NCBI GenBank assembly: GCA_902543535.1
Contig: CACBYG010000003.1
Span: forward strand, 62,001-126,000
Reading direction: 5' to 3'
Source of the DNA: an uncultured Pelagibacteraceae bacterium
GTDB lineage: Bacteria; Pseudomonadota; Alphaproteobacteria; Pelagibacterales; Pelagibacteraceae
Length of the DNA stretch: 64,000 bases
The number at the start of each line of letters is the position of its first letter. Position 1 is the first letter of the stretch. Below, piece by piece: positions 22,841 through 39,817 of this stretch. The translations under genes and the position numbers were made by a program. The notes beneath the pieces were generated by a model. The model had not been told where the DNA came from. It worked only from the letters and a program-made list of their open reading frames with translations, and did no database searches.

Positions 22841-23974
22841 TTATTTTCTTCCTTTAGATAGCAGTTGTTTATAGAGTTTAACATCTGCATTACCTTCGCA
22901 TCCTATTACTAGAACATTAGATTTTTCGTTAAGTTCAATGAATTTTTTAGTCTTATAATTATTACAAACACCAATTAGGCTTATAATTCCAGGTGTTGAG
23001 CATTCCCCACCAATTATTGAATTTTTGCTGAGCTTTTTGTCTTTTAGCATAGCTACGGTTTTGGCAACATTTCGATCACTTACAGATACACAAGAATTGC
23101 TTGATTTTTTTAATATTTGCCAAGGAATATATGACATTTCATTACATGACATGCCGCCCATGATACTTTCTTTTTTAATCTTAATCTTTTTAAGTCTATT
23201 ATTTTTAATACTCTGAAGTACACAATCAGCTCTATCAGGTTCAACAATTATAATTTTTGGAATTCTTTTAAAATATTTTGCAACACCAGCGACAACACCA
23301 GCAGCCATGCCACCCACACCGGCTTGTAAAAAAATATGGGTTATATATTGATTAGTTTGTTTAGATATTTCTCTTATCATTATGGAATATCCTGCCATTG
23401 TAAGTTGGGGGACTAATTTGTAGTCTCTTGTTGCAACATCTTGGACGATTTTCCAATTATTTTTTTTAGATAACTTTTTACATTCATTAAGTGAGTTTTC
23501 GTAATCTCCTTTAACTCTTATAACTTCAGCTCCAAATTTTTTAATTTCATTAACCCTTGAATCACTTACGTATTTACTAACAAAGATTTTACATTTTAAA
23601 CCTAATCTTTTAGCACCCCATGCAACAGATCTTCCATGGTTTCCAGCAGTTGCTGAGGAAATAATTATATTTTTTTTTCCTTTAGATATTCTTTCAACAG
23701 CATATGCTCCTCCTAATGCCTTAAATGATTTTAAATGAAATCTTTTGGACTCATCTTTATAAAAAACATTATTGAGTTTTAAATTTTTTTGTAATTTATC
23801 AAGTTTAATTAGAGGTGTAGCCCTATAATTTTTCCAACTAGAAATTGACTTAAAAGCTTTTGTTAATAACAAAGAAGGGACAAATCTTAAAACATAATTT
23901 CTTTTAAAACTGAAATTATAATTTTTTATAGATTTTGTAAGCGTCCAGTTTTTAATACTTTTTAAACTCTTCAC
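22841..23974 (-). CDS. PLP-dependent diaminopropionate ammonia-lyase-like enzyme
   Basis: A 377-residue fold-type II PLP enzyme beginning at GTG one base after gmaS. The Schiff-base lysine is in FHLKSFKALGGAYAVE, the phosphate-binding loop region in SSATAGNHGRSVAWGAK, and a glycine-rich loop in AGVGGMAAGVVAGVAK. The LKSFKALGGAYA wording is typical of diaminopropionate ammonia-lyase (YgeX). Relatives include threonine dehydratases, so substrate is uncertain. Close linkage to gmaS suggests it handles an amino donor or amino acid from the methylamine pathway, which is inference. Confidence 0.68.
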   Translation of the reverse strand: MKSLKSIKNWTLTKSIKNYNFSFKRNYVLRFVPSLLLTKAFKSISSWKNYRATPLIKLDKLQKNLKLNNVFYKDESKRFHLKSFKALGGAYAVERISKGKKNIIISSATAGNHGRSVAWGAKRLGLKCKIFVSKYVSDSRVNEIKKFGAEVIRVKGDYENSLNECKKLSKKNNWKIVQDVATRDYKLVPQLTMAGYSIMIREISKQTNQYITHIFLQAGVGGMAAGVVAGVAKYFKRIPKIIIVEPDRADCVLQSIKNNRLKKIKIKKESIMGGMSCNEMSYIPWQILKKSSNSCVSVSDRNVAKTVAMLKDKKLSKNSIIGGECSTPGIISLIGVCNNYKTKKFIELNEKSNVLVIGCEGNADVKLYKQLLSKGRK

Positions 23975-23975
23975 T

Positions 23976-25301
23976 TTAACAGTCTAAAGTATTTTGTCTT
24001 TCCCATTGTGTTACAGGTTTGGACTTATCGAAGTTTTCTTTATTATCAAATTCATTAATTTCAGATTTTCTTAGTTTTATATAGCTATTAATTGTTTCTT
24101 TTCCAAAAGCTTCATTCATTTCCTTATTATTTTTTAAAAGTTCTAGCGAGTCTTGAAGTTCATTAGGTAATTTAGGTAAATTAGGATATTTTTTGTAATC
24201 TGTGTACATATTACATGTAAGAGGCTCTCCTGGATCAATTTTGTTTTTTAATCCACATAGCCCTGCAGCTAATACACTTGCTTGTAATAAGTATGGATTT
24301 GAAGATCCATCCATCAATCTTAATTCAAATCTACCAGGATCCGGAATTCTTATCATATGTGTTCTGTTATTGCCCGTATAAGATATGCTGCTTGGTGACC
24401 ATGATGCCCCAGATTTTGTTGGAGGTGCATTAATTCTTCTATAGCTATTAATTGTTGGATTAAAGAAAGCAGATAGGGAAGAGGCATTTTTAATAACTCC
24501 ACCTAAAAAATTATAAGCCATTTTACTAAGTCCAAGCTTGTCTGACTTATCTAAAAATTTATTTTTCTTTCCATCCCAAACTGATACGTGGGCGTGACAG
24601 CCATTACCTGTGAGGTTTTCAAACGGTTTAGGCATAAAAGTTGCTCTTAAACTATGTTTTTCGGATATAGTTTTTACCATATATTTAAAAAAGGTATGTC
24701 TATCTGCCGTTTTTAGACAATCATCATAATCCCAATTCATCTCAAATTGACCATTAGCATCTTCATGATCGTTTTGATAAGGACCCCATCCCATCTCAAT
24801 CATGCAATCACAAATCTCTTTAATTAAATCATATCTCCTCATTAAAGCTGATTGGTCATAACAAGGTTTAGACTGAGTATCTCTTGGATCAGCAATTGAA
24901 CTTCCATCTGGTGAGATTAAAAAGTATTCACATTCTACACCTGATTTCATTGTTAGATTTTGTTTTTTTAATCTCTTAATTTGATTTTTTAGTATTACTC
25001 TTGGAGAAGCTTCTACAGGTTTACCGTTCATCCATAAATCAGATGCAAGCCATCCTACTTCTTTATTCCAAGGCAATTGAATTAAACTATCTGGATCAGG
25101 AATACCAAACATATCGCTATCCGCAGGTGACATATCCAGCCAAGCTGCAAAACCAGCAAATCCTGCTCCAGCAGTTTGCATTTCTTTAATAGCATGCGCT
25201 GGAACTAGTTTTGATCTAAGTACACCAAAAAGATCAACAAAGCTTATTAAAAAATATTTTATTTTTTTTTGCTTTGCTATTTTGAATAAGTTTTTAGCCA
25301 T
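23976..25301 (-). CDS. gmaS: Gamma-glutamylmethylamide synthetase (GmaS)
   Basis: A 441-residue glutamine-synthetase-fold enzyme. The N-terminus (IKYFLISFVDLFGVLRSKLV) and blocks such as GFAAWLDMSPADSDMFGIP, QNDHEDANGQFEMNWDYDD and NGCHAHVSVW match GmaS proteins as I remember them rather than classical GlnA. GmaS ligates monomethylamine to glutamate using ATP, the entry step of the N-methylglutamate/gamma-glutamylmethylamide pathways. Metal-binding glutamates are in VECEYF and DANGQFE. It follows the 50-aa membrane protein by 17 bases; the lyase gene follows by 1 base. Confidence 0.85.
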   Translation of the reverse strand: MAKNLFKIAKQKKIKYFLISFVDLFGVLRSKLVPAHAIKEMQTAGAGFAGFAAWLDMSPADSDMFGIPDPDSLIQLPWNKEVGWLASDLWMNGKPVEASPRVILKNQIKRLKKQNLTMKSGVECEYFLISPDGSSIADPRDTQSKPCYDQSALMRRYDLIKEICDCMIEMGWGPYQNDHEDANGQFEMNWDYDDCLKTADRHTFFKYMVKTISEKHSLRATFMPKPFENLTGNGCHAHVSVWDGKKNKFLDKSDKLGLSKMAYNFLGGVIKNASSLSAFFNPTINSYRRINAPPTKSGASWSPSSISYTGNNRTHMIRIPDPGRFELRLMDGSSNPYLLQASVLAAGLCGLKNKIDPGEPLTCNMYTDYKKYPNLPKLPNELQDSLELLKNNKEMNEAFGKETINSYIKLRKSEINEFDNKENFDKSKPVTQWERQNTLDC

Positions 25302-25772: not shown

Positions 25773-27173
25773 TTACCTGGTTGCTGATGAAACTGCTTTT
25801 TCGTCATCTTTTGCAGTCTCCATCATTTCGTAGTCTAGTCCTGCTATCTCAACTTCACGTGGGATTCTTAATTTACCCATTCCGTTAAGAACTCTAGCAA
25901 TTATATATCCTGGTATAAGTCCTAGAACTAAGAACATTATTATTGCTCCTATAAATTGACCCAATGGATTAATTGTTGCATATGTTGTTCCATCAAACAT
26001 AGCTCCAACGCTATATCCAGATGAAGGATAACCATTCAAAACAAATCCACAGATTACAAGTCCAATAAAGCCAGCATAACCATGCACAGCTACTGCTCCA
26101 ACTGCATCATCAATTTTGAACTTTCGCTCAACCCAATAATGAAGTTTGTAGGAAATCACAACACCAATCATACCAATAATTAAAGCTTGAATTGGATGAT
26201 ACAAGTCATTTCCAGCTGATGCACATATTATACCTGCTAGTCCACTTGAGTAAGTCCAGAAAGGATCACCTTTTGCAATAACATACCCAGCTAACAATCC
26301 ACCTGATAACGACATCAAGAAATTCATAGTAATTCCACTCAATGTTGTAGGTGTTAAATAAATGTTAGTTGCTGTCCAGAATGTTACTCCTTCCATTCCA
26401 TATTCAGGTCCAAGGTCATATATCGGAACATTACATGCCGCATAAAATCCCCAGAAACCAGTATAAATTAGAAACAATCCAATAGTAACTAGCCAAGGAT
26501 TTCTTGGTCCTATGTTTCTTGGTTCACCACTTGATGAGAACTTTCCAATTCTTGGTCCTAGAACCATAAGAACACCAAGTGCAAATCCACCAGCTATTGC
26601 GTGAATAACACCTGAAGCATAAGCATCATGATATCCTAAAATTTTAAGCATCCATCCATCAAAGTGCCATCCCCATGAAGCATCTATCGACCAGAAAACA
26701 GATCCAATCGCAATTGCTAAAACTCCAAATGCGAAAGTTGTTATTCTTTCAATAATAGCCCCTGAAACTATAGAAGCAGCCGTCCATGAAAATAATAAGA
26801 ACGCCGCCCAGAAAACACCCATTATATGGTCGTTAAGATTAACTGCCATAAGAGCGTTAGTTGGATTAGCGAGATCATTCCCTCCAAATCCTCCACCTAA
26901 AACTAGTCCGGTACTTTCTGTCATAATTGATGGAGCTAGTCCAGGTCCTGTAGGAAAAGCCCAATATATCCACCAACCAAATAAAAACCAAGTCACTGTT
27001 ACCAAAGGTATAAGCATTGTATTTTTCATTAAGGTATGTTGGTGGTGTTTGTATCTTGACGCTCCAACTTCATACATACAGAAACCGACGTGAATTAAAA
27101 ACATCAGTACCACTGTTACCCAGTAGTAAAACTCTGTAAATATAGTAGTAAGAGCACCTAACTGATCAGTCAT
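25773..27173 (-). CDS. amt: Divergent Amt/Mep/Rh-family ammonium (or methylammonium) transporter
   Basis: A 466-residue membrane protein with about eleven helices and no obvious cleavable signal peptide. The twin-histidine pore residues are H191 (ASGVIHAIAGG) and H364 (VAVHGYAGF). The common DFAGGxVVH motif is replaced by DAYASGVIH, and a conserved FWTATNIYLTPTTLSG segment replaces typical AmtB text, so it belongs to a divergent branch. A GGGGGT-like ribosome binding region precedes the ATG. Closeness to gmaS makes methylammonium uptake an attractive inference; ammonium is the default. The 125 bases upstream hold no feature I can name. Confidence 0.87.
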   Translation of the reverse strand: MTDQLGALTTIFTEFYYWVTVVLMFLIHVGFCMYEVGASRYKHHQHTLMKNTMLIPLVTVTWFLFGWWIYWAFPTGPGLAPSIMTESTGLVLGGGFGGNDLANPTNALMAVNLNDHIMGVFWAAFLLFSWTAASIVSGAIIERITTFAFGVLAIAIGSVFWSIDASWGWHFDGWMLKILGYHDAYASGVIHAIAGGFALGVLMVLGPRIGKFSSSGEPRNIGPRNPWLVTIGLFLIYTGFWGFYAACNVPIYDLGPEYGMEGVTFWTATNIYLTPTTLSGITMNFLMSLSGGLLAGYVIAKGDPFWTYSSGLAGIICASAGNDLYHPIQALIIGMIGVVISYKLHYWVERKFKIDDAVGAVAVHGYAGFIGLVICGFVLNGYPSSGYSVGAMFDGTTYATINPLGQFIGAIIMFLVLGLIPGYIIARVLNGMGKLRIPREVEIAGLDYEMMETAKDDEKAVSSATR

Positions 27174-27298: not shown

Positions 27299-27709
27299 TT
27301 AAAACTTTAAATAGGCTTTTTTCAAATCAACAAGTGGATGTTTAGGAGACATTTGAAATTTAACTAACAGTTCTCTAGCTATCATATCTCTGTCTTGTTG
27401 ATTGTTAGGTAGCTTAATTGATTTTGGAATAGTAACCCACCCGTTAGCATTTCTACAAAATACTGCTGGTCTATCTTCTTCATAACCCATATGAACATCT
27501 TCTAGCCAATTAAGATCATCCCATCCCATAGCTTCAATATACTTCTTTAAAAATGGAGTTATCTTTTTGTAATCAGGAAGTAAGTTAACATCATATCTAT
27601 AACCAATATGTTGACCAATTAATTTTTCTCTTGCAGTTTCCTTAAAAGTACTAAGCTTGTCTTTTTTTGGTTTACCTTTAGATTTTATTTTTGTTTTTTT
27701 CTTTGGCAT
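27299..27709 (-). CDS. 136-aa conserved-looking protein after glxD, lysine-rich N-terminus
   Basis: The track start (TTG at 27745) lies inside glxD; the ATG at 27709 is 7 bases after the glxD stop and is preferred. The N-terminus is strongly basic (MPKKKTKIKSKGKPKKDK), like that of the upstream GlxD homologue. The rest is a compact globular domain with YRYDVNLLPDYKKI, a tryptophan-rich MGWDDLNWLEDVHMGYEED patch and FCRNANGWVTIPK. No family recognised. As the last gene of the FAD oxidase/GS/GlxBCD operon it may be an extra subunit or regulator of that complex. Confidence 0.6.
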   Translation of the reverse strand: MPKKKTKIKSKGKPKKDKLSTFKETAREKLIGQHIGYRYDVNLLPDYKKITPFLKKYIEAMGWDDLNWLEDVHMGYEEDRPAVFCRNANGWVTIPKSIKLPNNQQDRDMIARELLVKFQMSPKHPLVDLKKAYLKF

Positions 27710-27716
27710 ATTTAAT

Positions 27717-29138
27717 TTATATTTTGTGATAATTATCAACTCCAACAGTATAATTAGTTCCAGCTAAAGGAACTTTTGCTAAAGCAGATGCCTCAGATGT
27801 TAATGCAGCTAAATCTTCGGGCTCTAGTGAGTGGATATTAGTTTTACCACAAGCTCTAGCTAATAATTGAGCTTCTAAAGTCATTGAATGCAAATAATTA
27901 TAAACTCTTAAAGCAGCATCATCAGGATTTAATCTTGCTCTTAATTTTGGATCTTGCGTAGCAACTCCTACTGGGCAACGACCTGTGTGACAGTGGTAGC
28001 ATTCTCCAGCTTTTACACCCATTTCTTTTTCAAAATCAGCTTCAGGAATATCCTTGTTACAGTTTAGTGCAATCATTGATCCTGTACCAATTGCAATTGC
28101 ATCAGCTCCTAATGCTAGAGCTTTTGCCATATCAGCACCATCTCTTATACCACCTGCATAAATTAGAGTTACTTTCCCAGTCTTACCAACATCATCAATC
28201 GCTCTTCTGGCCTCTCTAATAGCAGCAATTCCAGGTATTCCAGTATTTGCAGCAGCAATGTGTGGTCCCGCTCCAGTTGATCCTTCCATTCCGTCTAGAT
28301 AAATTGAGTCAGGATCACATTTTGCAGCCATACGCACATCATCATAAACTTTTGATGCTCCTAATTTTAATTGAATTGGAACTTTATTTTTAGTTAATTG
28401 TCTTAACTCTTCAACCTTCAAAGCTAAATCATCAGGACCTAACCAGTCGGGGTGTCTAGCAGGTGATCTTTGGTCAATACCTGAAGGAAGTGATCTCATT
28501 TCAGCAACTTGGTCAGTTACTTTTTGTCCCATAAGGTGGCCGCCCATTCCAACTTTTTGACCTTGTCCAATAAAAACTTCTATTCCATCAGCTAACTGAG
28601 CATGATGAGGATTAAAACCATATCTTGATTGAATACATTGATAGTACCATTTTTCAGAATATCTTCTTTCATCCGGTATCATTCCACCTTCACCTGAACA
28701 AGTAGCGCTGCCAGCCATAGTTGCTCCTCTTGCTAAAGCAGTTTTAGCTTCATAAGATAATGCACCAAAACTCATCCCAGTAATATAAACTGGAATATCT
28801 AATTCAATTGGGTTTTCACATCTTGGACCAATTACTGTTTTGGTCTCACATTTTTCTCTATAACCTTCAATTACAAATCTTGTTAATGTTCCTGGTAAGA
28901 AAACTAAATCATCAAATGTTGGAATTTTTTTCATTAATGCCATTCCACGCATTCTGTATCTTCCTAACTGTGCTTTAATATGTATGTCGTCGATTACTTC
29001 AGGAGTGAAGATAGCGTTATGCCCTAATAAACTTTTATTTCTTTTTCCATCTTCGTGTGCATGAACGTCAGCTTTTCCACCAACTCCTTTTCCATTTGAT
29101 TTAACTTTTCCATTTTTTTTACTTTTTTTCTTAGGCAT
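27717..29138 (-). CDS. FMN-dependent glutamate-synthase-type protein (GlxD/MgsC-like)
   Basis: A 473-residue protein corresponding to the FMN and Fe-S core of glutamate synthase. It has a 35-residue lysine-rich N-terminal tail, then the TIM-barrel region with MSFGALSYEAKTALARG, LKLGASKVYDDVR, DGMEGSTGAGP and IYAGGIRDGADMAKALALGADA. The iron-sulfur cysteines are in CYHCHTGRCPVGV. In GlxBCD/MgsABC systems this subunit reductively transfers ammonia or methylamine onto 2-oxoglutarate or glutamate, giving N-methylglutamate in the Mgs case. Overlaps glxC by one base. Whether the true product is glutamate or N-methylglutamate cannot be settled here. Confidence 0.82.
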   Translation of the reverse strand: MPKKKSKKNGKVKSNGKGVGGKADVHAHEDGKRNKSLLGHNAIFTPEVIDDIHIKAQLGRYRMRGMALMKKIPTFDDLVFLPGTLTRFVIEGYREKCETKTVIGPRCENPIELDIPVYITGMSFGALSYEAKTALARGATMAGSATCSGEGGMIPDERRYSEKWYYQCIQSRYGFNPHHAQLADGIEVFIGQGQKVGMGGHLMGQKVTDQVAEMRSLPSGIDQRSPARHPDWLGPDDLALKVEELRQLTKNKVPIQLKLGASKVYDDVRMAAKCDPDSIYLDGMEGSTGAGPHIAAANTGIPGIAAIREARRAIDDVGKTGKVTLIYAGGIRDGADMAKALALGADAIAIGTGSMIALNCNKDIPEADFEKEMGVKAGECYHCHTGRCPVGVATQDPKLRARLNPDDAALRVYNYLHSMTLEAQLLARACGKTNIHSLEPEDLAALTSEASALAKVPLAGTNYTVGVDNYHKI

Positions 29139-29992
29139 TAAATTGCTCCCTTCTTCTCTGTAGGTTCTAAATTATCATAATTCCAAAGTTTTTTACCAGC
29201 TACAATTTTTTTCATTTTGCTAACGTCAAAATCTTCACCTATTTCTGCAACCTTTAGTTTTCGTCTTAACCAATCTTGGTCACTAGATGTTAATTCTGCA
29301 TCTACAGCATCACTACCATATGACCCAATTTCTCCACCTACGAAAATTGTCCCATCATACATAGAATCACCTAGATTTATTCCAACATCTCCAAGGATAA
29401 TTATTCTTCCTCTTTGCATCATAAAACCAGTAAATGCTCCAGCATCTCCACCAATAATAATCGTTCCACCTTTCATATCGATACCAGTTCTTGCACCAAC
29501 ACTACCTTTGCAGATTAAATCTCCACCTCTTATAGCAGCTCCAAAACAAGAACCTGCATTTTTTTCAATAACAACTTTTCCAGCCATTAAATTTTCTGCA
29601 CATGACCAACCAACTCTTCCGTTAATTCTAACAATTGGACCATCACAAGATCCCATTCCAAAATAACCTAAACTTCCTTCAAAAATTAAATTTAGTTTAT
29701 TTAAAATACCAACACCCAAACTGTGTTTTCCTTGTGGATTTTTAATTACTATTGTCCCATATCCTTGGCTCATTAAATTATCTATTTCCTTATTAGCTTC
29801 AGGTGCTGACATATTCATTACATCCAAGTCTGTTCTTTTATTGAAGTCAACATCGTAAGTTCCAAAATAATAAAAGTTTTCAGCTTCATCTGGATTAAAA
29901 AACTTTTGCTGAGTTCTTCCCGTTAATACTTCTGTGTGCATTCCCATTGATTGGGCTTTGGACTTTTTCTCGCTAGTTTTTATATTTGCCAT
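29138..29992 (-). CDS. GXGXG-domain glutamate-synthase-type protein (GlxC/MgsB-like)
   Basis: A 284-residue protein homologous to the C-terminal GXGXG beta-helix of glutamate synthase. Repeating glycine-rich turns are visible (IVRINGRVGWSCAENLMAG, GSCFGAAIRGGDLICKGSVG, GGTIIIGGDAGAFTGF, GGEIGSYG). In GOGAT this beta-helix organises the large protein and couples domains; as a separate subunit it should bridge the GlxB and GlxD homologues. It is longer than the roughly 230-residue GlxC I remember, with about 50 extra N-terminal residues. Overlaps the GlxB gene by 13 bases. Confidence 0.82.
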   Translation of the reverse strand: MANIKTSEKKSKAQSMGMHTEVLTGRTQQKFFNPDEAENFYYFGTYDVDFNKRTDLDVMNMSAPEANKEIDNLMSQGYGTIVIKNPQGKHSLGVGILNKLNLIFEGSLGYFGMGSCDGPIVRINGRVGWSCAENLMAGKVVIEKNAGSCFGAAIRGGDLICKGSVGARTGIDMKGGTIIIGGDAGAFTGFMMQRGRIIILGDVGINLGDSMYDGTIFVGGEIGSYGSDAVDAELTSSDQDWLRRKLKVAEIGEDFDVSKMKKIVAGKKLWNYDNLEPTEKKGAI

Positions 29993-30924
29993 ACTTTTAC
30001 CTCTCCATCAAAAGGATCATAAGTATCAATTTCATGTGGTAACACAGATCTGATTGCAATCTCTTCTGATCCCATTGCAACTAAATCATCCGATTCATAA
30101 AGTACTAAAGGTTTTGCTGCCATAGTATCTTTTGCCATACCTAAAGAGTCTTTAGTTGCTACAAAATAAGTAAATACACCGTCTAGGCCAGTTAAAGAGT
30201 CTTTCATTCCTTCTTCAAGACTTGCTCCTTCTCTCATTTTTTGTGCTATATAAACCGCTATCAATTCCGAGTCACATTCTGACATAAATCTCATACCTTT
30301 ATTTTCTAAAACTCTTCTGTTGTTCCAATAATTTGTAAGCTGTCCATTATGAACAACTGATACATCACTAAAAGGATAACCCCAGAAAGGGTGAGCTGAT
30401 TTAATATCCACACCAGACTCAGTCGCCATTCTTGCATGACCTATGGCGTGTGTTCCAACAAGTTTATCTAAACTATATCTGTCGCATACCATTTTTGCGT
30501 TCCCTAGATCTTTGATTACCTCTAAAGATTTTCCCATAGATAATATTTCTACTCCAGGAATACTTTCAATTCTTTGTGAAAAATCTAATAAATCTTTAGT
30601 TTCATAATCAACTTCATATCTCAATGAGTATGGAAGAGTTCTTTCCTCTTTGATAATTTTTGCACCCATCTCAGATAGAGTTTGATCAACAATTTTTTTT
30701 CTTTCATCGTAGACTGAAACATCTTCCATAACTGAAGAACTACCTTCTCCAACATTTTCTCCAACTTTAAAACGCATGATAAAATTTTTACCATCCGTAT
30801 CTCCGTATAAAGCATAACCTGTTGAGTCTTCACCTCTATGTTTTAATGCTTGAAGCATGCCTTGAAGTTCACTTCCAACATTTGAAGACTTACCTCTATG
30901 AATTAAACCTGCGATACCACACAT
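29980..30924 (-). CDS. Class II glutamine amidotransferase (GlxB/MgsA-like)
   Basis: A 314-residue Ntn-type glutaminase domain. The nucleophile is Cys2 in MCGIAGLIHRG after Met removal; other glutaminase features are GHARMATESGVD, HPFWGYPFSDVSVVHNGQLTN and the late ESDDLVAMGSEE. It should hydrolyse glutamine, or gamma-glutamylmethylamide in the Mgs case, and pass the amine to the GlxD-type subunit. It lies 28 bases after the type III synthetase gene and overlaps the GlxC gene, so the three Glx genes form one translational run. Confidence 0.84.
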   Translation of the reverse strand: MCGIAGLIHRGKSSNVGSELQGMLQALKHRGEDSTGYALYGDTDGKNFIMRFKVGENVGEGSSSVMEDVSVYDERKKIVDQTLSEMGAKIIKEERTLPYSLRYEVDYETKDLLDFSQRIESIPGVEILSMGKSLEVIKDLGNAKMVCDRYSLDKLVGTHAIGHARMATESGVDIKSAHPFWGYPFSDVSVVHNGQLTNYWNNRRVLENKGMRFMSECDSELIAVYIAQKMREGASLEEGMKDSLTGLDGVFTYFVATKDSLGMAKDTMAAKPLVLYESDDLVAMGSEEIAIRSVLPHEIDTYDPFDGEVKVWQI

Positions 30925-30952
30925 ATTTTATACCCTTCTTTTGTTTTATGAT

Positions 30953-32422
30953 CTATGGAAGGCAATCAAGATAAGTATCCAGATCCCACTGAGTTGTTGC
31001 ACCTAAAAATCTCTCCCATTCATCATTTTTGTACCAATGGAAAATTTTATACATTTCATCAGGCATAGCAGATTGTATTACTTTATCTTCTGCTAATCTG
31101 TCCAAAGCTTCCCCCAAACTTAAAGGTAATTTTTTGACATTCTTTCCTGCTTTCTGAGCCTCATAAATATTTCTAGATTCAGGTTTACCTGGGTCAATGT
31201 TGTTTGTTAATCCATCATCAAACGCTTTTAATAATGATGCTCCCATTAAATAAGGATTGTGCATTGAGTCCACCGAACGGTATTCGAATCTACCAGGAGC
31301 AGACACTCTTAAACCACAAGTTCTGTTTTGATAACCCCAGTCAGCATAAACAGGAGCCCAGAAACCTTGATCCCATAATCTTCTATAAGAATTAACTGTA
31401 GATGATCCTATAGCAGTTAAAGCAGGAAGGTGTTTCATAACACCACCAATAGATTTTAATCCAATCTTACCTGGTAACTGAACATCTTTAGTGTCTGGCA
31501 TGAATGTATTTGTTCCACCTTCAACATAACTAAACACTTCATCCATTCCAGGAAGAGATTTATGACCCAATTTATTTACTTTATCTTTTCCACCTGTCCA
31601 TAAAGACATGTTTGTATGACATCCACTCGCAGAAACACCCATAAATGGTTTTGTCATAAAGCAAGCAATTAAATTAAACTCTCTAGCAACTTGTGCACAA
31701 ATTTGTCTGTAAGTTGATAATCTGTCTGCATTTCTTAAAACATCATCAAACATCCAGTTTAATTCTAACTGACCTGGAGCATCTTCATGGTCTCCTTGAA
31801 TCATATCAAAACCCATAGCTCTTGCGTATTCCATTACCCTCATAAACACTGGTCTTAATGACTCGAATTGGTCAATATGATAACAATATGGTTTAGAGAA
31901 ACCCTTACCTGTTGGAGTTCCATCCTCATTTCTTGTTAACCACATCATCTCAGGCTCTGTTCCAACTCTTAACTGATAACCATGCTTTTTCTTAAATTCC
32001 TTAGCTATAATTCTTAAGTTGCCCCGACAATCAGATGTAAGATGACCTCCTGGATTTTCTCTTTCTTCTCTGTTTCTAAAACATGTTACAAAAACTCTCG
32101 CAACTTTTTTATCCCAAGGCAACTGACAAAAAGTTTCAGGATCTGGTATTCCAACAAGTTCTTTAGCTTCAGGTCCATAACCTATGTAGTTATTGTGACG
32201 ATCTAAGAAAAGGTTTGCTGTTGCACCATAAACTAATTGAAAACCTTTTTCACATGTTCTTTCCCAATGGTCTGCAGGTATTCCTTTACCTACAACTCTT
32301 CCAGTAACAGATATGAACTGAAAAAAAATATAATCAATTTTAAGTTCATTAATTTTAGCTCTAACCTGTTTTACTAGTTTATCTCTTCCAGGTTGGTTAA
32401 CATGTTTTTCTAAATCAGTCAT
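30953..32422 (-). CDS. glnT: Second glutamine-synthetase-like ligase (GlnT/type III branch)
   Basis: A 489-residue GS-fold ligase distinct from gmaS and about 50 residues longer. The N-terminal beta-grasp part is KIDYIFFQFISVTGRVVGKG. Catalytic-domain blocks include VGTEPEMMW, MIQGDHEDAPGQLELNWMFDD, VSASGCHTNMSLW and APGRFEYRSVDSMHNPYLM. It should make a gamma-glutamyl amide from glutamate, ATP and an amine, but the amine is unknown. An AAGGGG-like ribosome binding site precedes the ATG. It lies between the FAD oxidase and GlxBCD-like genes, implying that its amide product feeds GlxB. Confidence 0.78.
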   Translation of the reverse strand: MTDLEKHVNQPGRDKLVKQVRAKINELKIDYIFFQFISVTGRVVGKGIPADHWERTCEKGFQLVYGATANLFLDRHNNYIGYGPEAKELVGIPDPETFCQLPWDKKVARVFVTCFRNREERENPGGHLTSDCRGNLRIIAKEFKKKHGYQLRVGTEPEMMWLTRNEDGTPTGKGFSKPYCYHIDQFESLRPVFMRVMEYARAMGFDMIQGDHEDAPGQLELNWMFDDVLRNADRLSTYRQICAQVAREFNLIACFMTKPFMGVSASGCHTNMSLWTGGKDKVNKLGHKSLPGMDEVFSYVEGGTNTFMPDTKDVQLPGKIGLKSIGGVMKHLPALTAIGSSTVNSYRRLWDQGFWAPVYADWGYQNRTCGLRVSAPGRFEYRSVDSMHNPYLMGASLLKAFDDGLTNNIDPGKPESRNIYEAQKAGKNVKKLPLSLGEALDRLAEDKVIQSAMPDEMYKIFHWYKNDEWERFLGATTQWDLDTYLDCLP

Positions 32423-32492
32423 TTTTCCCCTTAATGAATTATAAATTTTATAAAGCGTAGCTGAAAAATTTATTTGTGTCTAGGCTTGAAGT

Positions 32493-33818
32493 TTAACTCC
32501 AAGGGAACGGACTGTTCGAAGTAGGGTGAAGTTCACCTTTCTCGTAACGGTTGAATCTAAACGGTTTTAATAAATTACTCTCAGTACCCAGAATTTCTTT
32601 TGCAACAAGTTCACCAACACCAATCATTTTGTATCCATGATTTGCATCAGCAATCATATAAACATTTTCTAAAAATCTATCAAAGATCGGAAACGAGTCT
32701 GGTGTCATGCATCCAAGACCACCTGATGGTCCTTTTCTATATAAACCAGATTTTCCCTCAAATCTTTTTTGACAATGTGCCAAAGCTGAACACCACATAT
32801 CATTAAATGCTTCGGTTGTTTGGTATTCAGGTGACTCCACACCGTACGGGTCAACATTGACTTGATCAAAATGTTTATCAACTATGTAAGGAGATGTTCC
32901 ACCTTGAACACCTAGTCCTTCAATATCTGGCTTGTAATATATTCCCCAAATTTTATCAGTAATTAATTTTTTTGTTGAATCAGAATATAATGGAGCGGTG
33001 GAATCAACATGAATAACAGGTGGTTGTTTACCATTATTCATTTTTAAAAAATCCGGCTCAACACCTAGAACACCTTCTTGCAGCATCCAGTATTTCCACA
33101 TATCAGTTGTATGTAATTTACCATCTTTACCTTTAATATTTGCAGTTTTTGGAAGTTCTAACATGTTCCAGAAATCTCTTACCCAAGGACCTGCACCAAC
33201 TACTACTTGTTCGCATTCAATAGTACCTTTATCAGTTTCTACACCGGTTACAGCTTTACTGTTACTTCCTCTTTTAAATCCAGTTACTTTAACTTCTTTA
33301 AATACGTTCACACCATTTGATGTTGATTTTTTTTCAAGCGCTTTTATCGAGTCCACATTGAATGCGTAACCACCTTTTTTTTCATGCAAAATAGACGTTA
33401 TACCTTTAGCTTGCCAATCATCGAACATACCTTTCATATAATTCGTACAGTCTTTTTCACCTTCTATAAATTTTGATTCATAACCAATTGCTTTTTGTTG
33501 CTCATAAATTGAAGCTACATCTTCATGCATAACTTCAGGCGAAATTTGTAAATATCCAACTGCATTATATTTGAAAGCATCGGGATCGCTTTCCCATACA
33601 GAAACTGAATGTGCCATTAATTCTCTCATTGCTGGTTGAAAATAATTATTTCTTACAACACCACATGCAATTCCACTTGCACCTGCAGCAGTATCTTTTT
33701 TTTCTAGAACAACTATGTCTCCAGGATTTTTATACGTTTCTGATAGTTTCCATGCGGTACTTAAACCGTGTATTCCACCACCTATAATGACTACTTTTGC
33801 TTTTGTGGGTAATGACAT
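32493..33818 (-). CDS. FAD-dependent DAO-family amine oxidase (SoxB-like, single subunit)
   Basis: A 441-residue flavoprotein of the D-amino-acid oxidase/sarcosine oxidase beta family. The FAD Rossmann motif is VVIIGGGIHGLSTAWKL at about 10-26; AAGASGIACGVVRNNYF and a C-terminal GPSGGLGCMTPDSFPIFDRF complete the flavin and substrate site. It should oxidise an N-methylated or secondary amino acid to an imine or aldehyde. It is first in the operon with the GS-III and GlxBCD homologues. I infer a methylated-glutamate or similar substrate, but sarcosine or another glycine derivative is possible. Palindromes upstream suggest control by the adjacent MarR-like protein. Confidence 0.75.
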   Translation of the reverse strand: MSLPTKAKVVIIGGGIHGLSTAWKLSETYKNPGDIVVLEKKDTAAGASGIACGVVRNNYFQPAMRELMAHSVSVWESDPDAFKYNAVGYLQISPEVMHEDVASIYEQQKAIGYESKFIEGEKDCTNYMKGMFDDWQAKGITSILHEKKGGYAFNVDSIKALEKKSTSNGVNVFKEVKVTGFKRGSNSKAVTGVETDKGTIECEQVVVGAGPWVRDFWNMLELPKTANIKGKDGKLHTTDMWKYWMLQEGVLGVEPDFLKMNNGKQPPVIHVDSTAPLYSDSTKKLITDKIWGIYYKPDIEGLGVQGGTSPYIVDKHFDQVNVDPYGVESPEYQTTEAFNDMWCSALAHCQKRFEGKSGLYRKGPSGGLGCMTPDSFPIFDRFLENVYMIADANHGYKMIGVGELVAKEILGTESNLLKPFRFNRYEKGELHPTSNSPFPWS

Positions 33819-33920: not shown

Positions 33921-34271
33921 TTAATAGCTTATATTTTTAAGAGTGGTTAAATATTCATTGAACTCTTTAATAAAAGATTCACTTGGCTTAATATTTTTAA
34001 TTCTTTGATCTGTTGAAGTTTTTTCTAATAGGAAGAATCCTTTTTCGCAAGCTTCATTAATGATTAAAGCCGATTTTGGCCTCGATGTTTTGAATAGTTT
34101 AGTTTTTAGTTGTTCAACAGATAATTTTTTATTTTCTTTATATGCTGACATTACTAATAACATCATATGATAATGAGAAGGTGATTTTCTAAAAAAATAG
34201 TTACTTGAGGTATGAGACTGTCTCATTTGATCTTCCCAGAAATTTAATAGAGTTTTTTTGTCTTTTGGCAT
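33921..34271 (-). CDS. Small MarR-like winged-helix regulator
   Basis: A 116-residue protein with a MarR-like pattern: an N-terminal helix, then LSVEQLKTKLFKTSRPKSALIINEACEKGFF (helix-turn-helix) and a basic wing containing TSTDQRIKNIKPSE. The STDQRIKNIKPS wording parallels the DxRxxxxxLT wing of MarR proteins. It is shorter than the usual 140-150 residues. It begins 5 bases after tdm and precedes the FAD oxidase operon, so it probably senses an intermediate of TMAO or methylamine degradation; that link is inference. Confidence 0.68.
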   Translation of the reverse strand: MPKDKKTLLNFWEDQMRQSHTSSNYFFRKSPSHYHMMLLVMSAYKENKKLSVEQLKTKLFKTSRPKSALIINEACEKGFFLLEKTSTDQRIKNIKPSESFIKEFNEYLTTLKNISY

Positions 34272-34276
34272 TTAAT

Positions 34277-36616
34277 TTATGATCTTACTCTAGACTTAGT
34301 TGGGTCATAAAAAGGAAACGCAACTACTTTGGCAGCTATTCTTTTTTGATGACCATCAATTTTACCAACTTCAACCTCAGTCCCAATCTCTGAATACTGC
34401 ATATCAATTCTACACAATGCTATATTTTTATTTAAAGTTGAGGATAAACATCCACTTGTAACCACACCTATCTGAGATCTTCCAATATGAACACAGTCAC
34501 CATGACCAGCAATTTCTTTACCTGTTAATTCTAGTCCAACAAGTTTTTTTTGAGGGTTATTTTTTCTTTTTATTAATTCTTCTTTACCAATAAAATCCTC
34601 TTCTTTTGTTTTTAATGGAACAGCAAAACCAATACCTGCCTCAAAAGGATCTTGTTGACCATCAAACTCATTACCAAATAAAATTAATCCTGCTTCAATT
34701 CTAAGTTTGTCTAAAGCTCCAAATCCTGCAGGAATCAAACCATCTTCTTTTCCTGCTTCCATTAATTTATCCCAGACTTCAGGAGCATGTTTAGGGTGAC
34801 ACCAAATTTCATAACCTAACTCACCAGTATAACCAGTTCTAGAAACAATCAATGGTATTCCTTGCAACTCCTCTATTCTGCAAATGCTAAATCTAAACCA
34901 ACCAAGCTCATCTATAGAAGGTTGAGTAGGAGGTGTAAAAATTATCTTCTTTAAAATTTCTCTACTTTTTGGACCTTGTAATGAAACATTATTTATTTGG
35001 TCTGTTGAATTTTTTATATTTGCATTGAAATTTTTCTTTTTTGCAATTTCTTTTAACCATTCACCTCCATATTCATCTCCACAAATCCATCTAAAACCAG
35101 TTTCACTTAATCTTAAAAGAGTACCGTCGTCAAACATCATTCCATTTTCGTAGCACATTGCAGAATATACAACTTGACCTACCGATAATTTTTTAATGTT
35201 TCTTGTAAGTGTATAATTTAATAATTCTTCAGCATCAGGACCAATAATTTCGAATTTTCTTAATGAAGATAAATCAATTAAAACTGCATCATTTCTACAA
35301 GCGTTGTACTCATTAACAAGCCCATGTTTTGTATAATCATTTGGAAGCCAAAAACCTCTGGCATCAATAAAGTTTCTAGTTAGCTTTGATGTTCTTTCAT
35401 AAAAGCCAGAGTTTCTTGTGAGTTTTTTTTCAGAGTCTGTTTTCATTCTAAATGCAAATGATTTAGTAAATTCTTTTTTTTTGTCATATGTTCTAACAAA
35501 AATATTAGTTGGATTCCACGAATTACAAGGATCTATATCACTAGGACATGCTGTTGTTCCAATGGTTAAATCTTTTAAGGCTTTAAACATGACATAATCA
35601 CCAGGACGCGAATATGATTCATCTGAAACAACTGAGTTTAATCCACCTTCAGAGGTATTAAAAAATAAATTGATTGCGTGCCACCCTTTTTGTTTTTGCA
35701 GACCATACTTTGACATACTTTCTGTAAGATTATCAGAGCAATTTGCATGGCCAAAATAACCAGCATCTTCATAGTACTTTGAAGTACAGGCAAGATTAAA
35801 AGTATCATGTTTACCAACGGTATCTCTAATTACTTCTACCAAAGGTTCATGGTCAGTATCATAAAATTTAGAAAATAATCCTGGACCTGGAAATGTATTT
35901 CCCATGAAAGTTCTAGTTGTTTGCCAATCTAAACCTTTCTCAATTCCTTTTTCTAATTTCCTTGTGTCAAATGCCACAAAGTCTGAACATTGTCTTCCAG
36001 TTGGACTTATCACTTGTATGTAGTCACCTTCTTTAACTTCATAAGATATACTACTTGCTTTATTTATATTCTCCTCGTGCGATGGTTCAAAGACAGGGTT
36101 TGGAATAACATTCAATTCTTTGTCATCAATAATATTTGCTCTTTTAATATAAACAATTAAATCTGTAGGAGGATTTTGCTTTGTAACATCCATGTCTTGT
36201 CCGGGCGCTGCAAATATTGCAAAACATTTATCTTTAGACTTTAAATTAATTTTTTCATTAATTTGGGTATCAATATCAAATACTATTGAGGATTTTGATT
36301 CTGAAATATTTAAGTTTAGTTTTTTAAGTTGATAATTGGTTGCTAGAATACTTTCATCTTTTTTACTTAAGATATCTCTAATAAAATTTTTATTGTTGTT
36401 ACTTTTAAGATTTAAAATACCTACATCTGATTTTCCGTCTTTATTAAAACATATAATTTCACAAATTTGATTTCCTTCGTTATTGATAATCTCTATTTCA
36501 TCATCAGGGAAAATATGAAAAGCAGTAAGGCCACCACCATTTACAACATGTCTTTCAACTCCTGGTGGTAAAATATTTAGTCCTGGATATTTTATGTCTT
36601 TACTAATTCCCAACAT
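34277..36616 (-). CDS. tdm: Trimethylamine N-oxide demethylase (DUF1989 + GcvT fusion)
   Basis: A large cytosolic enzyme with an N-terminal DUF1989 pair of cupin-like regions (about 1-375) and a C-terminal aminomethyltransferase (GcvT) domain that binds THF (about 400-778). It cleaves TMAO to dimethylamine and formaldehyde, which the C-terminal domain captures on THF. Three cysteines (CTSKYYEDAG, CSDNLTES, CPSDIDP) have spacing C-x15-C-x63-C, the spacing I recall for the zinc ligands of Methylocella Tdm. The track start is TTG at 36622; the ATG two codons later gives 779 residues and is preferred. The regulator gene follows by 5 bases. Confidence 0.87.
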   Translation of the reverse strand: MLGISKDIKYPGLNILPPGVERHVVNGGGLTAFHIFPDDEIEIINNEGNQICEIICFNKDGKSDVGILNLKSNNNKNFIRDILSKKDESILATNYQLKKLNLNISESKSSIVFDIDTQINEKINLKSKDKCFAIFAAPGQDMDVTKQNPPTDLIVYIKRANIIDDKELNVIPNPVFEPSHEENINKASSISYEVKEGDYIQVISPTGRQCSDFVAFDTRKLEKGIEKGLDWQTTRTFMGNTFPGPGLFSKFYDTDHEPLVEVIRDTVGKHDTFNLACTSKYYEDAGYFGHANCSDNLTESMSKYGLQKQKGWHAINLFFNTSEGGLNSVVSDESYSRPGDYVMFKALKDLTIGTTACPSDIDPCNSWNPTNIFVRTYDKKKEFTKSFAFRMKTDSEKKLTRNSGFYERTSKLTRNFIDARGFWLPNDYTKHGLVNEYNACRNDAVLIDLSSLRKFEIIGPDAEELLNYTLTRNIKKLSVGQVVYSAMCYENGMMFDDGTLLRLSETGFRWICGDEYGGEWLKEIAKKKNFNANIKNSTDQINNVSLQGPKSREILKKIIFTPPTQPSIDELGWFRFSICRIEELQGIPLIVSRTGYTGELGYEIWCHPKHAPEVWDKLMEAGKEDGLIPAGFGALDKLRIEAGLILFGNEFDGQQDPFEAGIGFAVPLKTKEEDFIGKEELIKRKNNPQKKLVGLELTGKEIAGHGDCVHIGRSQIGVVTSGCLSSTLNKNIALCRIDMQYSEIGTEVEVGKIDGHQKRIAAKVVAFPFYDPTKSRVRS

Positions 36617-36650
36617 GTTCAATGTTTTATTATAATTTTATAGTGAACAT
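36615..36650. promoter_or_regulatory. Widely spaced inverted repeat over the tdm start
   Basis: ATGTTCA at 36615-36621 and TGAACAT at 36644-36650 are perfect 7-base arms separated by 22 bases. The interval includes the minus-strand TATAAT-like element (TTATAATA) that probably belongs to the tdm promoter. An operator pair or an mRNA stem hiding the start codon is possible. Confidence 0.35.
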
Positions 36651-36729: not shown

Positions 36730-37707
36730 ATGAAAAATAAAAGTTTGCCGTTAATTATCGGCGCAATAGTAGTAATAGCTGCAGCTGTTTTCTTCATGCA
36801 AGGAGGAGACAAAACTGCAAAAAAATCTGGTGATAGTAGCCAGCCAATAGTAATTCCGACACACAACTGGTCAAGCCAAATTGTAATGGCTTATGTTATT
36901 GGAGGAATTTTTGAAAGTATGGGTAATAACGTTTCATATGCTGAAGGTGTTGACTCACAAAAAGTCTACGAGTCAATAAGACAGGGTGATGTAACTATAT
37001 CGCACGAAGTATGGGAATCAGCTTTCGGAAAATCTTTTGATAACGCAAGAGATGCTGGTGGTTTACTAGATTGGGGAGATCATGAAGCAAGAACACTTGA
37101 AGATATGGGATATCCTAACTGGGTTGTTGAAAAAGGATTATGCCCAGGCTTACCAGACTGGACAGCTTTAAAAAATCCTGATTGTGCTAAAAACTTTACA
37201 ACTCCTGATTCACCAGATGGAAAAGGAAGAATGTTGGAAGGTCCACAAACTTGGCATGGTGATTTAATTCCTCAGAGAGTTGATGCTTTAGGTTTAGGAG
37301 ACCTTTGGTGGGTTAAATTTGCTGGAAGTGCAGATGCACTTTGGGCAGAGTTAAAAGCAGCTGAAAAAGAAGGAAGAGGAACAATTATATTCAATTGGAC
37401 TCCAAACTTTACAGATGGTGCTGGTTTTACATTTATTGACTTCCCTCCATATACAGCAGGTTGCAGACCAGCTGATGGTGGAGATGGTAAATGCGGTTCT
37501 CCTGATGGATATTTGAAAAAAGCAGTTCATGAGGATTTTCCAAAAACTCATCCAAATGCAGCAGCAGTTTTCAAAAAAATGTCATTTTCAACAAGTCAAA
37601 TCGGAGCAATGGCAGCTTTAGTTGACATTGATGGCATGACTCACCAAGATGCAGCTAAAAAATGGTTAGCTGATAATGAGTCAACTTGGAAAGCTTTTAC
37701 TAAATAA
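36730..37707 (+). CDS. tmoX: TMAO/betaine-type periplasmic binding protein (TmoX-like)
   Basis: A 325-residue binding protein of the quaternary-amine OpuAC/ProX class. It begins with a signal-anchor-like helix (about 4-23, LPLIIGAIVVIAAAVFFMQ). Mature sequence has IPTHNWSSQIVMAYVIG, ISHEVWESAF and IIFNWTPNF, tryptophans of the aromatic cage that holds methylated ammonium groups. Adjacent tdm (divergent) and tmm favour TMAO as ligand; glycine betaine or choline could also bind. Its own promoter and a strong terminator bracket the gene. Confidence 0.83.
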   Translation: MKNKSLPLIIGAIVVIAAAVFFMQGGDKTAKKSGDSSQPIVIPTHNWSSQIVMAYVIGGIFESMGNNVSYAEGVDSQKVYESIRQGDVTISHEVWESAFGKSFDNARDAGGLLDWGDHEARTLEDMGYPNWVVEKGLCPGLPDWTALKNPDCAKNFTTPDSPDGKGRMLEGPQTWHGDLIPQRVDALGLGDLWWVKFAGSADALWAELKAAEKEGRGTIIFNWTPNFTDGAGFTFIDFPPYTAGCRPADGGDGKCGSPDGYLKKAVHEDFPKTHPNAAAVFKKMSFSTSQIGAMAALVDIDGMTHQDAAKKWLADNESTWKAFTK

Positions 37708-37727
37708 GTTTAAAGTTTAAATTTAAA

Positions 37728-37761
37728 ATCTCTCCCGACTTTGTCGGGAGGGATTTTTTTT
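37728..37761 (+). terminator. Intrinsic terminator after tmoX
   Basis: CTCCCGAC (37732-37739), loop TTT, GTCGGGAG (37743-37750), extended at the base by ATCT/GGAT-type pairing, then a run of seven or more T residues from 37754. It is 27 bases before the start of the MORN gene and separates tmoX from the remaining transporter genes. Confidence 0.92.
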
Positions 37762-37787
37762 TATTTTATTTTGTGTAAAATATAATC

Positions 37788-38162
37788 ATGAAAAAATTTA
37801 TTTACTTTTTAATTTTAACATTTTTTATTTGTACATCAGTCTTTGCCAGAAGCACTGGATGTAAAGAGGGAAATTGCGAAAATGGATATGGCAAATGGGT
37901 TTATACAGATAAAACTACATATGAAGGTGAGTGGGTAGATACAAAAAAACAAGGCCGGGGAGTAGAAACTTGGCCTAATGGATATATTTATAAAGGTGAG
38001 TTTGAAAATAGTGTTTGGAGTGGACAAGGAATTTTAATATTTCCGGATGGTTCATCGTACGACGGGGAATGGGCCAATGGTTTTATGAATGGTCAAGGAA
38101 CATTTACTTGGGCAAATGGAAAACAAAAATCAGGAATTTGGAAAAATGGAAAACTAGAATAA
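37788..38162 (+). CDS. Exported MORN-repeat protein
   Basis: A 124-residue protein with a Sec signal peptide (MKKFIYFLILTFFICTSVFA) and three to four MORN repeats, for example YEGEWVDTKKQGRGVETWPNG, YKGEFENSVWSGQGILIFPDG and YDGEWANGFMNGQGTFTWANG with regular spacing of about 23 residues. MORN repeats form an extended beta-hairpin array used in protein or lipid contact. Two N-terminal cysteines (GCKEGNCENG) may form a disulfide. It sits between tmoX and the ATPase gene, 2 bases before the next membrane protein gene. Role unknown. Confidence 0.8.
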   Translation: MKKFIYFLILTFFICTSVFARSTGCKEGNCENGYGKWVYTDKTTYEGEWVDTKKQGRGVETWPNGYIYKGEFENSVWSGQGILIFPDGSSYDGEWANGFMNGQGTFTWANGKQKSGIWKNGKLE

Positions 38163-38164
38163 TA

Positions 38165-38716
38165 ATGATTCAAGAATATTATTTAAATAAATTAAAAGCA
38201 TTACCGGAGTGGCTCAGACAATTTGGGGGGCTAGTAATTGTTACATTAATTATAATTTTATCTTTTGTAGTCCTCAATAATATTTTTGGTGAAGGAGATG
38301 ATTTAGTTAAAAGAATGAAAATTGAAGAAGATAGAATTGCAGAAGAAAGAAAATTAAATGAATTAATTTCAAGTCTTCCATCTGGAATTTTAGTTACTTT
38401 CGATGGGACCGATCATCATAGGTTATCAGACGATGTTTATGAGAAAGTCTGCAAAGCTACAAAACTTATTCCACAAAGAGCCATAATGGGTGCTAATTTT
38501 CTTAATTTTAGAGCGCATGAAATTTATACAATAAATGGTAATAAAATTGATGATACATTTGTTAAGTGGGATAAAGAAAAAAATAAATGTTTAGCAGGTT
38601 TTACAGTAAGTGGAAAAAATGTTGGAGTAGATGAAAAAATAGCTGTAACTGGAGAGGCATTAAGTTTTTTAAGTACAGGAATTGATACTAGAGTTTATTA
38701 CATCAAAAATTTTTAA
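38165..38716 (+). CDS. Single-pass membrane protein with periplasmic domain, unknown function
   Basis: The track ORF begins at 38015 inside the MORN gene; the ATG at 38165, 2 bases after the MORN stop, is preferred and gives 183 residues. There is a short cytoplasmic part, a helix at about 20-41 (FGGLVIVTLIIILSFVVLNN), a charged coiled-coil-like stretch (VKRMKIEEDRIAEERKLNELI) and a globular domain with two cysteines (KVCKATK, NKCLAGF). No family recognised. It may pair with the MORN protein; an effect on the Tmo transporter is only a positional guess. Confidence 0.65.
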   Translation: MIQEYYLNKLKALPEWLRQFGGLVIVTLIIILSFVVLNNIFGEGDDLVKRMKIEEDRIAEERKLNELISSLPSGILVTFDGTDHHRLSDDVYEKVCKATKLIPQRAIMGANFLNFRAHEIYTINGNKIDDTFVKWDKEKNKCLAGFTVSGKNVGVDEKIAVTGEALSFLSTGIDTRVYYIKNF

Positions 38717-38782
38717 CTAAGGAGAAACAAATATTATATACATTTTAATTTAATTAAATTTCGTATAACTTAATAATAATTT

Positions 38783-39814
38783 ATGTCTGACGCAGTTATT
38801 AAATGTGAGTCTGTTTACAAAATTTTTGGAGAAAATGCAGAAAAAATGCTTCAAGAAGCAAACGGAAACGTTAATGCAAAAACTTTTCAAGAAAATGGAT
38901 GTATAGTTGGAGTTAATGATGCTTCTTTTGAAGTAGCAAAAGGAGAAATGTTGGTTGTGATGGGTTTATCTGGATCTGGTAAATCAACTTTGCTTAGATG
39001 TATCTCTAGATTGACCGAAGCAACAGGTGGAAAAATTTTTATAGAGGGCCAAGATTTGTTGAAGTTGAACAACAAAGACCTAATTGACCTTAGAAGAAAT
39101 AAAATGGGAATGGTTTTTCAAAGTTTTGCTCTATTACCACACAAAACTGTCTTAGAAAATATAGCATTCCCCCTTCAGATTAAAGGTATTAACACTGATG
39201 ATAGCATTACTAAGGCAATGGATATGGTTAAGTTAGTTGGATTAGATGGAAGAGAAAACTATTTTCCAAGAGAACTTTCAGGTGGACAGCAACAGAGAGT
39301 AGGTATTGCAAGATCCTTGGCAGTAGAACCAGATATTTGGTTTTTAGATGAGCCTTTTTCTGCATTAGATCCCTTGATCAGAAAAGAAATGCAGGATGAA
39401 TTTTTAAGACTTCAAGATAAATTACAAAAAACTATTATGTTCATTACTCATGATTTTGATGAGGCTTTAAAGCTAGCAGATAGAATAGCAATTATGAAAG
39501 ATGGTATAATTGAACAATTAGATACACCAGCCAAGATAGTTTTAAATCCTGCAACAGAATATGTCAGAAAATTTACAGAAGAAGTCCCTAGGGAAAAAGT
39601 TTTGTTAATTGAAGATGTAATGGATAAATCTACAAATAATAATTTAGGAGATTTAAGAGTTTTAAAAGATGAAATCATAGAAAATGTTGCTGAAAAAATT
39701 CTAACGCAAGAAAAAACTGTAGGAGTTATAGATAGTGATAATAACATTGTAGGCTCTATAAATCCAACAAAGATTATAAATACAGTATTTGGTGGAAGAA
39801 AAAATGGAAATTAA
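38783..39814 (+). CDS. tmoW: TMAO/betaine-type ABC importer ATPase (TmoW-like)
   Basis: A 343-residue ATPase of the ProV/OpuAA class. Walker A is GLSGSGKSTLLRC near residue 60, signature LSGGQQQRVGIARSLAV near 165, Walker B DIWFLDEPFSALDP near 188. The C-terminal region (about 270-340) retains a CBS-like tail (GVIDSDNNIVGSIN), shorter than two full CBS domains. It powers the fused permease that begins 3 bases after its stop. A 66-base gap separates it from the membrane protein gene. Confidence 0.86.
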   Translation: MSDAVIKCESVYKIFGENAEKMLQEANGNVNAKTFQENGCIVGVNDASFEVAKGEMLVVMGLSGSGKSTLLRCISRLTEATGGKIFIEGQDLLKLNNKDLIDLRRNKMGMVFQSFALLPHKTVLENIAFPLQIKGINTDDSITKAMDMVKLVGLDGRENYFPRELSGGQQQRVGIARSLAVEPDIWFLDEPFSALDPLIRKEMQDEFLRLQDKLQKTIMFITHDFDEALKLADRIAIMKDGIIEQLDTPAKIVLNPATEYVRKFTEEVPREKVLLIEDVMDKSTNNNLGDLRVLKDEIIENVAEKILTQEKTVGVIDSDNNIVGSINPTKIINTVFGGRKNGN

Positions 39815-39817
39815 GCA

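Follow-up and report, generated by a model that had tools for sequence, protein, structure and literature searches.

A candidate glutamate-linked pathway for dimethylamine in the methylamine locus of SAR11 bacteria

Proposed pathway and background

The window analysed here, a 64,000-nucleotide stretch of contig CACBYG010000003.1, belongs to an incomplete SAR11 (Pelagibacteraceae) genome of 1.1 Mb that is 80% complete. Six genes on its minus strand (27299-33818) encode a sarcosine oxidase-type flavin adenine dinucleotide (FAD) enzyme (FADox), a glutamine synthetase (GS)-like ligase (LIG), three subunits of a glutamate synthase-like enzyme (GlxB2, GlxC2 and GlxD2, together GlxBCD2) and a conserved 136-aa protein (p136). 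We propose that this module is a glutamate-carried alternative pathway for dimethylamine (DMA) that stands in for DMA monooxygenase (HODM), a reading to which we give a probability of roughly 60% from the sequence evidence. The amine is probably DMA, because the module is linked to Tdm, the trimethylamine N-oxide (TMAO) demethylase that produces DMA, and because LIG and HODM exclude one another.

SAR11, the most abundant bacteria in the ocean, produce DMA from TMAO without the only known marine enzyme for DMA breakdown, a gap that the module probably fills. DmmDABC is the enzyme that demethylates DMA in Ruegeria pomeroyi; it was missing from all SAR11 representatives examined, which was taken as a metabolic bottleneck (PMC5520151). 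Even so, SAR11 strain HTCC1062 uses TMAO, tdm and gmaS being upregulated, and an unknown isoenzyme was postulated (PMC8918994). In a 2011 survey of SAR11 one-carbon (C1) genes, SAR11_1304 was called a monomeric sarcosine oxidase that might act on substrates not yet known; the same survey treated SAR11_1313-1315 as glxBCD (PMC3160333). SAR11_1305 is annotated as glnT, a GS (PMC5069961), and the hypothetical gene SAR11_1309 adjoins amt, SAR11_1310 (PMC2704228). Judging from gene order and annotation, SAR11_1304 and SAR11_1305 of HTCC1062 are very probably FADox and LIG, and by order SAR11_1309 would fit p136, the module lying ahead of that second glxBCD; in the literature found, the first two appear only as a sarcosine oxidase and a GS, with no role in DMA metabolism. 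Among titles and the openings of abstracts (subscription papers and preprints lay outside the search), no paper was found in which gamma-glutamyl-dimethylamide or N,N-dimethylglutamate is connected with amine catabolism.

Every substrate and product in the following scheme is our inference from computed features: gene content, conservation, two Glx clades, exclusion of HODM and active-site residues. LIG would join DMA to the gamma-carboxyl group of glutamate with ATP, giving gamma-glutamyl-dimethylamide. GlxBCD2, probably with p136, would act like N-methylglutamate synthase: its glutaminase subunit would free DMA internally, and its flavin mononucleotide (FMN) subunit would couple the DMA to the 2-oxoglutarate skeleton to form N,N-dimethylglutamate. 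FADox would then take off one methyl group as formaldehyde, leaving N-methylglutamate, which MgdABCD (48103-53209) would convert to glutamate and a C1 unit on tetrahydrofolate. The nitrogen and methyl groups of TMAO would be recovered without free monomethylamine (MMA), and GmaS would take up MMA in parallel. We see about an even chance for the broader claim of an undescribed pathway in which DMA is held on glutamate and loses its methyls successively without free MMA, by means of a type-2 synthase that includes a new small subunit, this pathway being the main sink for DMA in SAR11 and in many other TMAO-using alphaproteobacteria. If the module does handle DMA, SAR11 could strip trimethylamine (TMA) and TMAO completely, gaining nitrogen as well as C1 energy, and marine DMA use would be underestimated by surveys based on dmm gene counts.

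Conservation of the gene cluster

The cluster lies in the TMA/TMAO locus of the genome, which comprises Tmm, a betaine-type transporter and Tdm, followed by FADox, LIG, GlxBCD, p136, Amt and GmaS. A first-pass annotation of this DNA had described the six genes as consecutive, on one strand and mostly overlapping. The first two points hold; overlaps are limited to GlxB/GlxC (13 bp) and GlxC/GlxD (1 bp), the remaining junctions being gaps of 7, 28 and 70 bp. That annotation had left unrecognised the upstream 781-aa gene (Tdm), Tmm at 42943-44274 and the soxBDAG operon at 48103-53209.

Eighty SAR11 loci show this gene order, and the order LIG-GlxBCD-p136 is also found in distant alphaproteobacteria; the arrangement is therefore not due to chance. 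When a genome collection was scanned with LIG, the matches were almost all from Pelagibacteraceae, and several ligases were identical to that of the window. The expected occurrence in roseobacters was not confirmed in the cases open to a check: dmmDABC serves in R. pomeroyi (PMC5520151), and on Rhodobacterales plasmids the scan found just divergent LIG relatives (about 53%) in other gene contexts.

Linkage to Tdm and exclusion of HODM

Tdm of the window (34277-36622, minus strand, 781 aa) matches NF053776 over 763 of 763 positions with 1080 bits, slightly below the cut-off of 1100. As a marker for HODM we used its alpha domain, PF11927 (DmmC type). Tdm occurs in 34 of 385 alphaproteobacterial genomes and the ligase in 40; the latter is present in 27/34 Tdm-positive versus 13/351 Tdm-negative genomes. 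The 34 Tdm-positive genomes divide into 27 with the ligase and no PF11927, five with PF11927 and no ligase, and two with neither. A second, phylum-wide sample added 21 Tdm-positive genomes, every one of which carries PF11927 and lacks the module ligase; G733 has a 53% relative, and other matches are below 40%. Pooled, the 55 Tdm-positive genomes comprise 27 with the ligase only, 26 with PF11927 only, two with neither and none with both. Counted by family, the corresponding numbers are 13, 10, 1 and 0 (Fisher 5.6e-6). PF11927 is absent from the window's own genome (80% complete) and from 197 of 197 Pelagibacteraceae genomes. Linkage is also physical: Tdm lies on the same contig within 20 kb of LIG in 15 of the 27 genomes that have both. 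In the SAR11 loci with a contig long enough to include Tdm, the same proximity is nearly universal.

Several observations count against the proposed role. PF11927 is broader than DmmC, yet several of these genomes have it no more than about 20 kb from Tdm, as expected for dmm. Thirteen genomes have the ligase without Tdm, which means that TMAO need not be the source of the amine in every case. FADox is absent from two near-complete ligase-positive genomes (G077 and G366) and present without LIG in two others (G159 and G297), and one genome (G335) has a Tdm, scoring below the cut-off, with neither system. The exclusion statistics, moreover, ignore kinship within families. This kinship, together with the dominance of a single family (f174) in the second sample, would suit an explanation by phylogenetic accident, in which LIG and HODM are unconnected in function and simply characterise different lineages. 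We consider this very improbable: 13 ligase and 10 HODM families include none with both, and each system is physically linked to Tdm in several families.

A second Tdm-positive genome with neither system (G259) was set aside as a counter-example. An assembly gap is likely there, because its Tdm extends to the edge of a contig of 7 kb, and the GmaS, GlxD and FADox of its genus-mates are missing as well.

The ligase

LIG (30953-32422, minus strand, 489 aa; PF00120, 266 bits) reaches 295 bits against the GmaS model TIGR03105, well under the cut-off of 470. GmaS of the window (23976-25301, minus strand), whose best PDB match is GmaS 7cql (E 3e-170), scores 620 bits. LIG and GmaS also form separate supported groups in a tree, and the first-pass annotation was right to distinguish them. 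The amine-pocket residues of GmaS (K30', Y147, Q175, D177, E179, E186 and N188; for their functional roles see PMC7948447) are all retained in 25 of 25 LIG sequences. An ammonia GS was rejected as an identity for LIG: LIG holds these alkylamine-pocket residues, and the archaeal ammonia GS aligned with it differs at several of them.

DMA is a very poor substrate for GmaS itself, with a Km of 16 mM versus 27 uM for MMA (PMC7948447). Two GmaS residues, Y174 and H237, are replaced by I and N, respectively, in all 25 aligned LIG sequences. Two neighbours of the pocket, L31 and N176, are glycine in 23 of the 25, both exceptions being divergent ligases outside the module; plasmid relatives of LIG retain one of the two glycines. 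These glycines may give LIG room for a second methyl group. The predicted structure of LIG is of low confidence (predicted local distance difference test [pLDDT] score 68).

Divergent relatives of LIG (about 52-66%) adjoin another GS-like protein in loci L212, L213, L125 and L126, and on Rhodobacterales plasmids they occur with genes for an aldehyde dehydrogenase, a gamma-glutamyl hydrolase, a P450 or an ATP-binding cassette (ABC) transporter. They are probably ligases for other amines. The module itself might likewise serve some other amine, secondary or alkyl, that arises when choline, carnitine or polyamines are broken down, with the Tdm linkage reflecting shared C1 and nitrogen metabolism. 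The 13 ligase-positive genomes without Tdm, the different amine-related settings of the divergent relatives and the binding of choline by SAR11 TmoX (PMC8918994) would agree with this. A one-for-one exchange with HODM among Tdm-positive genomes would not be expected from such a role, however, and we think it distinctly unlikely.

The type-2 synthase and p136

GlxBCD2 has the split subunits of N-methylglutamate synthase in the order of MgsABC: a class II glutaminase (GlxB2, 29980-30924, 314 aa; PF13522), a GXGXG subunit (GlxC2, 29138-29992, 284 aa; PF01493) and a subunit with an FMN/iron-sulfur glutamate synthase domain (GlxD2, 27717-29138, 473 aa; PF01645, 299 bits), all on the minus strand. 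Cys2 of GlxB2 is invariant across 28 sequences. In trees of GlxD and of GlxB, the LIG-linked proteins (type 2) form a clade apart from the GmaS-linked MgsABC (type 1), each with 100% support, and identity between the types is about 52% (D), 36% (C) and 35% (B). The identification of GlxBCD2 as an ordinary MgsABC was rejected on this ground, the MgsABC found next to GmaS in dmm-type clusters falling in the other clade.

Type-2 synthases are invariably associated with LIG, and many genomes have them alongside GmaS-MgsABC, which argues that GlxBCD2 is not merely the MMA enzyme. Both synthases stand in one row (FADox-LIG-GlxBCD2-p136-Amt-MgsABC-GmaS) in 15 of the 80 SAR11 loci, and G030, G337 and G176 also hold both types. 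In four of the five genomes with Tdm and HODM that were checked, type 1 is the sole synthase, and the fifth lacks both types. A type-1 synthase was not found in the lineage of the window, being absent from its own genome (80% complete) and also from the 99% complete G207, so GlxBCD2 probably processes gamma-glutamylmethylamide as well. In the complete genome G086, LIG, GlxBCD2 and FADox occur without GmaS or a type-1 synthase; the module is therefore independent of GmaS.

The gene for p136 (27299-27709, minus strand) follows GlxD2 wherever the contig extends that far, and the proteins are 68-91% identical. No relative in the PDB (best E 0.018) and no Pfam or NCBIfam match was found. The protein is probably a structural or accessory part of the type-2 synthase.

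FADox and MgdABCD

FADox (32493-33818, minus strand) is a single 441-aa subunit of the DAO family (PF01266, 115 bits), unlike the four-subunit SoxB/D/A/G type. It falls under the cut-offs of the named families soxB (76 of 529 bits), soxA_mon (36 of 480) and MTOX (48 of 257). Its predicted model (pLDDT 89) finds its best fold matches in TSOX beta and MSOX. FADox shares with TSOX beta, MSOX and DMGO/DMGDH the DAO fold and, presumably, the N-demethylation chemistry; it differs from them in its low identity (14-20% by structural alignment), in having no folate-binding domain and in being tied to a ligase module. Because a folate domain is missing, its C1 product is likely to be free formaldehyde. 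R56 and K397, invariant in 20 orthologs, align with the carboxylate-binding pair of TSOX beta. An Arg/Lys pair of this kind binds the substrate carboxylate in MSOX and TSOX, and an N-methyl amino acid is therefore favoured over free DMA as the substrate of FADox. Three further proposals of the first-pass annotation stand as the best available readings: a ligase forming the gamma-glutamyl amide of an alkylamine and not of ammonia, as its GmaS-type amine pocket suggests, a GlxBCD forming an N-alkylated glutamate and an FAD enzyme of the N-methyl-amino-acid oxidase type.

The same residues bear on the possibility that the module is a second MMA route, with LIG as an isozyme of GmaS, GlxBCD2 as an isozyme of MgsABC, and free DMA converted to MMA by FADox or by an unrelated enzyme. 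The shared amine pocket would fit such a route, as would the several lineages, including that of the window, which have GmaS but only GlxBCD2, so that the latter can probably use gamma-glutamylmethylamide. We nevertheless regard it as doubtful. It gives no reason for LIG to exclude HODM, which acts at the DMA step, or for streamlined SAR11 genomes to keep LIG-GlxBCD2 beside GmaS-MgsABC; the carboxylate-binding pair of FADox would be superfluous for free DMA, and FADox is missing from the two near-complete ligase-positive genomes mentioned above.

In the proposed DMA pathway, N-methylglutamate would pass to MgdABCD. The soxBDAG operon of the window (48103-53209, plus strand) gives 672 bits for soxB, 1318 for soxA and 115 for soxD; SoxG, which has no Pfam match, is assigned by position and size. 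Its SoxB groups with Mgd of dmm-type clusters (100/99 support) to the exclusion of the second SoxB of the genome. With four subunits and this grouping with Mgd of methylamine clusters, the operon is probably MgdABCD. The second soxBDAG (L118, G000:C2:36001-52000) has a SoxB 58% identical to the window copy, and sarcosine is one likely substrate for it.

The first-pass annotation had raised the idea that FADox is a one-subunit N-methylglutamate dehydrogenase in place of MgdABCD, and had named a complete mgdABCD plus mgsABC set elsewhere as evidence to the contrary; the mgd half of that set is now in hand. The sarcosine oxidase fold and carboxylate-binding pair of FADox would be compatible with the idea. 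Substitution is hardly credible, however, in view of the Mgd-type operon in the window itself, the second soxBDAG in the genome and the presence of at least one SoxD in 47 of 50 genomes examined. FADox stands directly before soxBDAG in G176, which fits partners and not substitutes, and near soxBDAG in G075, G286 and G364. This proximity suits two enzymes that take successive methyls off a methylated glutamate.

In the SAR11 genome G297, FADox is some 11 kb from soxBDAG, and Tdm, LIG, GlxD of either type and GmaS are lacking. There (L117, 15351-17122), FADox (81%), the 116-aa protein upstream of it and the nearby soxBDAG are retained, although GlxBCD as a whole is missing too.

Comparison with known systems

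Like the module, GmaS-MgsABC-MgdABCD combines a GS-like ligase, a three-part glutamate synthase-like enzyme with the same domains and glxBCD order, and FAD-dependent demethylation of an N-methylated glutamate. The module differs in that its ligase and synthase fall in separate clades, that it adds FADox and p136, that it coexists with GmaS-MgsABC, and that it is tied to Tdm and exclusive with HODM, with DMA as its proposed amine. DmmDABC occupies the same place after Tdm in TMA- and TMAO-degrading bacteria. In contrast to the proposed ATP-driven conjugation to glutamate, it is an oxygenase, unrelated in sequence, that yields free MMA.

Surrounding genes

Between Tdm and FADox is a gene for a 116-aa protein (33921-34271, minus strand), possibly a regulator, which has no family match and is kept in 68 of the 80 SAR11 loci. 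Upstream of Tdm, a betaine-type ABC transporter (36730-41971, plus strand; PF04069, proV-type ATPase) is a candidate TmoXWV, its position being that of tmoXWV in HTCC1062 (PMC8918994). Two short open reading frames (37788-38716) separate the gene for its binding protein from that for the ATPase, and one of the two appears by eye to have MORN-like repeats. Tmm, the TMA monooxygenase (42943-44274, minus strand), scores 740 bits against NF058570 (cut-off 675).

On the other side of the module, Amt (25773-27173, minus strand) belongs to the ammonium/amine transporter family (TIGR00836, 182 bits, under the cut-off). GmaS is followed by a diaminopropionate ammonia-lyase-like pyridoxal phosphate enzyme (22841-23974), as in about half (39) of the 80 SAR11 loci.

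In G279 (L101, 10662-12287), a GntR-like regulator and a 287-aa protein, nitrilase/omega-amidase-like by eye, lie between Tdm and LIG; the latter protein is possibly a repair enzyme for gamma-glutamyl amides. Finally, a contig filed under an Actinomycetota metagenome-assembled genome (L160, JAAZZH010000022) carries a 92% SAR11 ligase locus, which is probably bin contamination.

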